From Gammaproteobacteria bacterium (GTDB lineage: Bacteria > Pseudomonadota > Gammaproteobacteria > Magnimaribacterales > Magnimaribacteraceae): a stretch of DNA of 35,323 nt. Shown here in pieces: positions 33,986 through 35,323 of the stretch. The notes beneath the pieces are model-generated. The model saw nothing but the letters and a program-made list of their open reading frames with translations, ran no database searches and was not told the origin of the DNA. The first letter of the stretch is position 1. Each line of letters begins with the position of its first letter. The DNA is taken from positions 1-35,323 of the forward strand of contig PCBA01000036.1 of the NCBI GenBank assembly GCA_002730855.1. Reading direction: 5' to 3'. The position numbers were made by a program, and so were the translations under genes.

Positions 33986-34966
33986 TTATTTATTGAGAAT
34001 ATCGTTTATCAGTTTAGGTCCTTCGTAAATAAATCCAGTATATATTTGAACTAAATCTGCCCCTGAATCAATTTTTTGTAGGTAGTCTTCTTTAGACATA
34101 ACTCCACCAGAAGCTATTATAGGGAATTCATCTCCTAAGAACTTTCTGGCAATTCTCAAAGTTTCAGTTGAAGGTCCCAATAAAGGCTTGCCGCTTAATC
34201 CTCCTGAACCAGATGGATGGTTATGATTGACTGTAGTATTACTACATATCAAACCATCAATAGAAAATTTTAATAACGTCCTACAAATATCTTCTACATC
34301 TTTTCGATCATTATCAGGGCTAATTTTTAAAAATAAGGGTTTATACCCAAAATCTTTAGTTAATTCTAGTTGCCTCTCTTTTACCGGTTTAATTAAATTT
34401 TCTAGTTTATTCTCTGCCTCAAAATCTCTTAAATCTTTCGTATTTGGTGAAGAAATATTAATTGCGATGTAGTCTGCAAATTCATAAATCTTTTCTAAGC
34501 AACAAATATAATCTTTATGGGCCAATTCATTAGGGGTTTCAAAATTCTTACCAATACTTACCCCTACAGGTATCTTAGTTTTTCTTTCTCTTAGTTTTGA
34601 AACTAAATGGTCTACTCCTTTATTATTAAAACCCATTTTATTAACTAATGCTTTAGAAGCTCTGATTCTGAAGAGTCTAGGCTTCTTATTTCCATTTTGA
34701 GAAAGCGGGGTTACAGTGCCTAGCTCTATAAAGCCGACACCTAAAGAAGCCAAGCAATCTATAAAGTCTCCGTTTTTATCTAATCCTGCAGCTATTCCTA
34801 GTTTATTATTAAATTGTATGCCGCTTAAATATTTAATTTCTTCAGGGAGATCAATCTTGAAACCACATAGATAAACAGCCTTTAAACCGTATAAGGCTAA
34901 ATAATGGGACATCTCAGGTGGAATAAAATGAAGTGTTTTAGTTATTATTTTAAGCAGTAACAACAT
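33986..34966 (-). CDS. pyrD: Dihydroorotate dehydrogenase (quinone), class 2
   Basis: GIAAGLDKNGDFIDCLASLGVGFIELGTVTP, NKMGFNNKG, INISSPNTKDLRD, LICSNTTV, GLSGKPL, IIASGGV. Confidence 0.96.
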   Translation of the reverse strand: MLLLLKIITKTLHFIPPEMSHYLALYGLKAVYLCGFKIDLPEEIKYLSGIQFNNKLGIAAGLDKNGDFIDCLASLGVGFIELGTVTPLSQNGNKKPRLFRIRASKALVNKMGFNNKGVDHLVSKLRERKTKIPVGVSIGKNFETPNELAHKDYICCLEKIYEFADYIAINISSPNTKDLRDFEAENKLENLIKPVKERQLELTKDFGYKPLFLKISPDNDRKDVEDICRTLLKFSIDGLICSNTTVNHNHPSGSGGLSGKPLLGPSTETLRIARKFLGDEFPIIASGGVMSKEDYLQKIDSGADLVQIYTGFIYEGPKLINDILNK

Positions 34967-35073: not shown

Positions 35074-35102
35074 TTGACTTTATAATTCAAATTGGTTCTA
35101 AT
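35074..35102 (+). promoter_or_regulatory. Candidate sigma70-type promoter for the Gly-X-Y repeat protein
   Basis: TTGACT (35074-35079), 17-bp spacer, TCTAAT (35097-35102), about 46 bp before ATG at 35149. Confidence 0.5.
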
Positions 35103-35148
35103 TCAAGTATTGTAAGTCAATCTGGCGATACATATAGGGAAAAGAATT

Positions 35149-35323
35149 ATGAAATCTTGGTTAATAAAAAATAAATTATTGTCTTCGATAGTTTCTATTT
35201 TAATTGCTGTAGTACCTCAAAGTCTTCTCTCTGCTGAAGAAGCAGAAGGAGCTACTGGAGGAGAGGGTTCAGCTGCAGGAGCTGAAGGAACTGCAGGAGC
35301 TGCAGGAGCTGAAGGAACTGCAG
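35149..35323 (+). CDS. Secreted collagen-like (Gly-X-Y) repeat protein, 3'-truncated by the window edge
   Basis: Open frame MKSWLIKNKLLSSIVSILIAVVPQSLLSAEEAEGATGGEGSAAGAEGTAGAAGAEGTA...: signal-peptide-like N-terminus then Gly every third residue; purine-rich AGGGA upstream of ATG. Not in the ORF track because it has no stop in the window. Confidence 0.75.
   Translation, partial: MKSWLIKNKLLSSIVSILIAVVPQSLLSAEEAEGATGGEGSAAGAEGTAGAAGAEGTA
35272..35323 (+). repeat. 27-bp tandem repeat with internal 9-bp sub-periodicity
   Basis: GCTGCAGGAGCTGAAGGAACTGCAGGA at 35272-35298, followed by an identical 25-bp partial copy at 35299-35323; sub-units GCTGCAGGA / GCTGAAGGA / ACTGCAGGA. Confidence 0.93.

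Follow-up and report, generated by a model that had tools for sequence, protein, structure and literature searches.

The window, a stretch of 35,323 bp, is one entire contig (G000:C36) of an assembly with 63 contigs and a completeness of 71%. At its right end, an open reading frame next to pyrD codes for a truncated secreted low-complexity product (Table 1). The truncation arises because the contig breaks off within a perfect repeat of 27 bp, which agrees with the original prediction of a protein cut at the right edge.

Table 1. Features at the right end of the window
Feature	Position	Strand	Remark
pyrD (dihydroorotate dehydrogenase)	33986..34966	-	Divergent neighbor; named from sequence and relatives
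Promoter-like block TTGACT-N17-TCTAAT	35074..35102	+	Kept in G004
Shine-Dalgarno-like AGGGA	35136..35140	+	8 nt before the ATG
ORF, translation MKSWLIKNKLLSSIVSILIAVVPQSLLSAEEAEGATGGEGSAAGAEGTAGAAGAEGTA	35149..35323	+	ATG start at 35149; frame open through the last base
Signal-peptide-like leader MKSWLIKNKLLSSIVSILIAVVPQSLLSA	35149..35235	+	Cleavage predicted before EE; judged by composition
Start of the mature protein EEAEGATGGEGSAAGAEGTAGAAGAEGTA, a Gly/Ala/Glu/Thr linker with Gly at period 3	35236..35323	+	Cut by the contig end
Perfect tandem repeat with a 27-bp period, coding for AAGAEGTAG	35271..35323	+	Contig ends within the repeat

The ORF, which was missing from the supplied gene track, is real. 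Its translation is as described, it is preceded by the Shine-Dalgarno-like sequence and the promoter-like block, and it has orthologs. A short, low-complexity frame at the edge of an assembly may be a chance or dead reading frame, but the probability of this is negligible: the leader is conserved, a ribosome site and a promoter-like block are present, and the explanation is refuted by intact orthologs of 226 to 281 amino acids in three genomes of the same genus. The block upstream of the ORF is the same in one of them, G004, and related blocks, TTGACA-N17/18-TCTAAT or TTTAAT, occur at five other SAR86 loci. A standard promoter scan with a stricter rule did not list the block, since the second hexamer must have A as its second base there. 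The leader has an n-region with K, a hydrophobic stretch, and the site LSA|EE, all kept in G003, G004, and G005. As judged by composition, a Sec signal peptide is present in the ORF and in all orthologs, so that the product was correctly regarded as secreted.

The gene cannot be completed from its own genome since neither the other flank of the 27-bp repeat nor YjbF was found in the 71% complete assembly. The pyrD gene marks the equivalent genomic place in relatives. The closest ortholog is located in the uncultured SAR86 cluster bacterium AG-319-O13 (G004, CABXQE010000016.1), likewise beside pyrD, and shares 75% identity across residues 1 to 57 (E = 8.8e-14), which places the window in SAR86 as well. 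Full-length forms have 226 amino acids in G004, 281 in G003, and 266 in G005, with the latter two being similar in form to the first. In the aligned orthologs, the signal peptide is followed by a Gly/Ala linker that varies in both length and content, and this by a hydrophobic helix with a D/S/G motif behind it (AAVGGxTxGTIAAVxAIAAAAAAISDS). Proline-threonine runs come next, then (TATRTTGA)n, acidic repeats with Tyr/Val, and finally a Thr-rich tail such as TVPAVAASTATATATATREVN. The window copy ends ahead of the helix and the tail. In SAR86 (family f1), lengths range from 226 to 788 amino acids; most genomes have the TATRTTGA octapeptides and others proline-threonine runs. The octapeptide copy number varies between 0 and 6 among the species, and in the DNA of G004 the array is a nearly perfect 24-bp repeat of 5.2 copies (99%). 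Cysteine is absent from the SAR86 forms except for two residues in G011. An AlphaFold model of the G004 protein had a mean pLDDT of 41, which is low confidence; it displayed helices at residues 2 to 23 (signal peptide) and 73 to 89 (membrane helix), two tiny strands near the C terminus, and otherwise nothing folded. The 788-residue version of G011 (L124:3774-6140) is alike in its N-terminal half, followed by a long region with DPNTGG.APGYLGDYVT repeats.

A glycine at every third residue with one register shift, from which the start of a collagen-like protein had been deduced, is indeed visible in the window. The longest period-3 run of 5 (P = 0.0145) and the number of Gly-to-Gly(+3) pairs (P = 0.002) both exceed chance for the same composition, and the periodicity is genuine although just 9 glycines are visible. 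A true collagen-like surface protein, in which an extended linker repeat of this genome would form a triple helix, needs to be considered because the period is above chance in the window copy and in G013, and because both assemblies stop in perfect repeats. The ortholog of G013 is cut in the same linker, and its contig ends in a perfect 18-bp repeat 58 bp long (L007). The perfect repeats run for 53 and 58 bp up to the breaks, which suggests that G000 and G013 contain arrays exceeding the reach of the assembler, and the linker length in the window is not fixed by the assembly since two assemblies break within it. The short stretch with Gly at each third residue is what the ORF shares with bacterial collagen-like proteins (PF01391). 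In contrast to these, the tract contains neither Pro nor Lys, the Pfam search gave no match to PF01391 at E ≤ 1, and nearly all orthologs have lost the period, which is absent or not above chance in G003, G005, G024, G014, G022, G023, G019, G011, G012, G032, and G035. Moreover, the orthologous tract comprises only about 20 to 40 residues between leader and helix, and the helix and Thr-rich repeats come next. A collagen is thus very improbable, and the Gly tract is a variable linker, which is no evidence of one. The original prediction held with respect to truncation, secretion, a low-complexity protein probably at the cell envelope, and its fallback of a "low-complexity linker," exactly what the orthologs display, but not with respect to collagen. 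No OmpA-like, autotransporter, or PEP-CTERM anchors, which it had suggested, occurred among the Pfam and NCBIfam matches of the orthologs. The NCBIfam matches (InlK, SslE, TonB, and Ig-blocking) were rejected as low-complexity noise, far below the cut-offs and mostly on the proline-threonine runs. A protein resembling GfcA in G294 (L126:6117-6458) has a Gly-rich tail, GGPGPGGPGTGGTGGTGG, with the period-3 glycines in the tail and not in the linker.

The gene had also been called unusual beside compact housekeeping genes. Its place in the relatives is the border of a polysaccharide export cluster, which is not visible in the window because it would lie past the contig end. The order in G004 and G005 is a Wza-like export gene, yjbH, and yjbF, then the Thr-rich gene on the opposite strand, and then pyrD; in all three relatives of the same genus, the Thr-rich gene is convergent to the cluster. 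YjbF (PF11102) was identified with E values of 2e-29 (G004) and 6e-31 (G005), YjbH (PF06082) with 1e-184 and 5e-179, and the export protein by Poly_export and SLBB plus weak GfcC domains. Adjacency to yjbF was found in G003, G004, G005, and eight more SAR86 genomes, while the window contig ends before this point. Whenever pyrD and yjbF were on one contig, the Thr-rich protein was between them (all 11 such genomes among the SAR86 genomes searched), and complete pyrD loci in SAR86 genomes without yjbF gave no match; G000 and G013 were left out of the latter count as the gene is cut there by the contig end. In G012, the gene is at a contig end beside pyrD, with yjbF on a different contig. This gene set is that of polysaccharide export by gfcABCD and yjbEFGH in E. 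coli. The absence of a separate gfcC/yjbG gene in SAR86 may be due to GfcC-like C-terminal domains in the Wza-like exporters (L041:2978-4798, L040:4009-5808); PF06251 was above the cut-off in the export protein of G005 (23.2 bits). G010, a single contig 95% complete from the same family, had no match to the PyrD of the window, so that this gene was lost or replaced there.

The ORF therefore very probably represents the 5' part of a GfcA/YjbE gene in its SAR86 form, whose product is a secreted partner of YjbF (GfcB) and YjbH (GfcD) in polysaccharide export. Because the window copy stops before the helix, this membership rests on ortholog and synteny; helix, Thr-rich tail, and yjbF/yjbH should continue past the contig end. 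E. coli GfcA (YmcD), annotated as "threonine-rich inner membrane protein" and encoded next to gfcB (yjbF family) in the group 4 capsule operon gfcABCDE-etp-etk, likewise has a signal peptide, a Gly/Ala/Thr linker, a single hydrophobic helix, a DSGDGG-like motif, and a Thr-rich tail. It differs in length, 101 amino acids compared to 226 to 281 in the genus of the window, and has no proline-threonine or octapeptide repeats. Moreover, gfcA is the first gene of its operon and on the same strand in E. coli, whereas the SAR86 gene converges on yjbH-yjbF. Layout and partner genes also agree with those of E. coli YjbE (PF11106, yjbEFGH operon), which, however, has 80 amino acids, and PF11106 had no match for the SAR86 proteins P0001 to P0004. 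E. coli GfcA was not matched by PF11106 either. The GfcA/YjbE layout reaches well beyond the YjbE model of Pfam, and the SAR86 protein is a repeat-rich form of this already known kind. True homology across the family is hard to prove due to the low complexity, and convergence on composition is possible.

The breadth of this layout was evaluated with a filter for a signal peptide, a G/A/T/S/P linker, an Ala/Gly/Val-rich hydrophobic helix, and a T/S-rich tail. The filter was fixed after the discovery loci had been viewed. Just its later run counts as a test, in which it was applied without change to 66 additional yjbF loci belonging to two other orders and, as controls, to 39 stretches that were about 3.6 kb long and came from the same genomes. 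A match was found at 46 of the 66 new loci (45 of 65 distinct places, as L148 and L149 are one place) but in none of the 39 controls. The matches span at least seven families, with loci related within genera and not independent of each other. Looser inspection added one locus, L140, and about 30% of the yjbF loci had no such neighbor within 1.5 kb. The cut-off of the Pfam YjbE model was reached by close relatives only. The most regular parts across 68 family members were the helix and the last 10 or so residues: the T/S content was 61% in the last 12 residues, excluding the final one, versus 28% in the whole mature chain, and the C-terminal residue was R, N, or Q in 44 of the 68. Two tandem genes of this kind beside one yjbF were present in several genomes, at L065, L174, L221, L224, and L231, which suggests duplication and perhaps hetero-assembly.

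GfcA and YjbE are required for or implicated in the export of capsule or exopolysaccharide, and Pfam covers only the close relatives of YjbE. The comparison indicates that YjbF is often accompanied by a GfcA/YjbE-type protein, defined by layout and not by sequence, across the Gammaproteobacteria. The helix, the D/N/G motif that follows, and the Thr-rich tail, in which the last residue is mostly R, N, or Q, are the three conserved parts and hence the pieces to mutate. SAR86 bacteria are marine, uncultured, and streamlined, and gain a candidate locus for the export of a surface polysaccharide.

A gfcA deletion mutant of enteropathogenic E. coli was unencapsulated, and complementation restored the capsule (PMC3853201). 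GfcB and GfcC jointly bind GfcD, a barrel in the outer membrane, according to the summary of PMC8592465 in PMC9603273, and GfcD was modeled as a lipid-anchored polysaccharide exporter (PMC11494523). Larson et al. 2021 proposed that Ser/Thr residues of GfcA might carry O-antigen and be directed to or exported by GfcD (PMC8592465). A search of one literature library for a function of GfcA/YjbE beyond deletion phenotypes, and for SAR86 capsules, found none.

For the SAR86 protein, the sequence features would be compatible with export by Sec and an Ala-rich helix that keeps the protein in or against a membrane. From this helix would extend a long, disordered, hydroxyl-rich chain that cooperates with the lipoprotein YjbF and the barrel YjbH while the polymer is exported; its most likely role would be to carry the polysaccharide or to serve as its attachment point. 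The Gly-X-Y tract may be a flexible spacer from the cleavage site to the helix, varied by repeat slippage. Long hydroxyl-rich repeats with nearly no cysteine would fit a disordered chain carrying or guiding a polymer, and the carrier mechanism for the Thr-rich chain is put forward tentatively, at somewhat less than an even chance. A role that is structural only is almost equally probable: the helix may lend stability to the export complex, with the Thr-rich tail packing as a strand on YjbF/YjbH and no sugar attached. The regularity of the helix and the last residues, the often alternating TxTxTx pattern of the tail, and a second barrel of GfcD with an odd number of 13 strands (PMC11494523) argue for this role, but a single strand needs no such very long Thr and proline-threonine repeats as in SAR86. 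Alternatively, the chain may be secreted through YjbH as a matrix protein of fibrous or amyloid-like type, since it is of low complexity and rich in Ala, Gly, and Thr, and since a study of OPX proteins reports a match between the amyloid transporter FapF and the N-terminal half of GfcD/YjbH (PMC9603273). This is improbable because the hydrophobic helix near the signal peptide suggests membrane retention, and the small E. coli forms have just about 58 to 80 residues once cleaved. Returning to the carrier, a rather unlikely reading is that GfcA was lengthened by repeats in SAR86 and that this long protein is the glycosylated carrier which YjbH exports; such a polymer would be a conjugate of protein and polysaccharide, and E. 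coli would have a short, minimal form of the carrier.

The last 20 or so residues of the export protein at L040:4009-5808, SDLAVSAAAIAAISNNN, resemble in their make-up the helix and motif of the GfcA-like protein, IAAAAAAISDSDD, possibly as a shared membrane or packing element.
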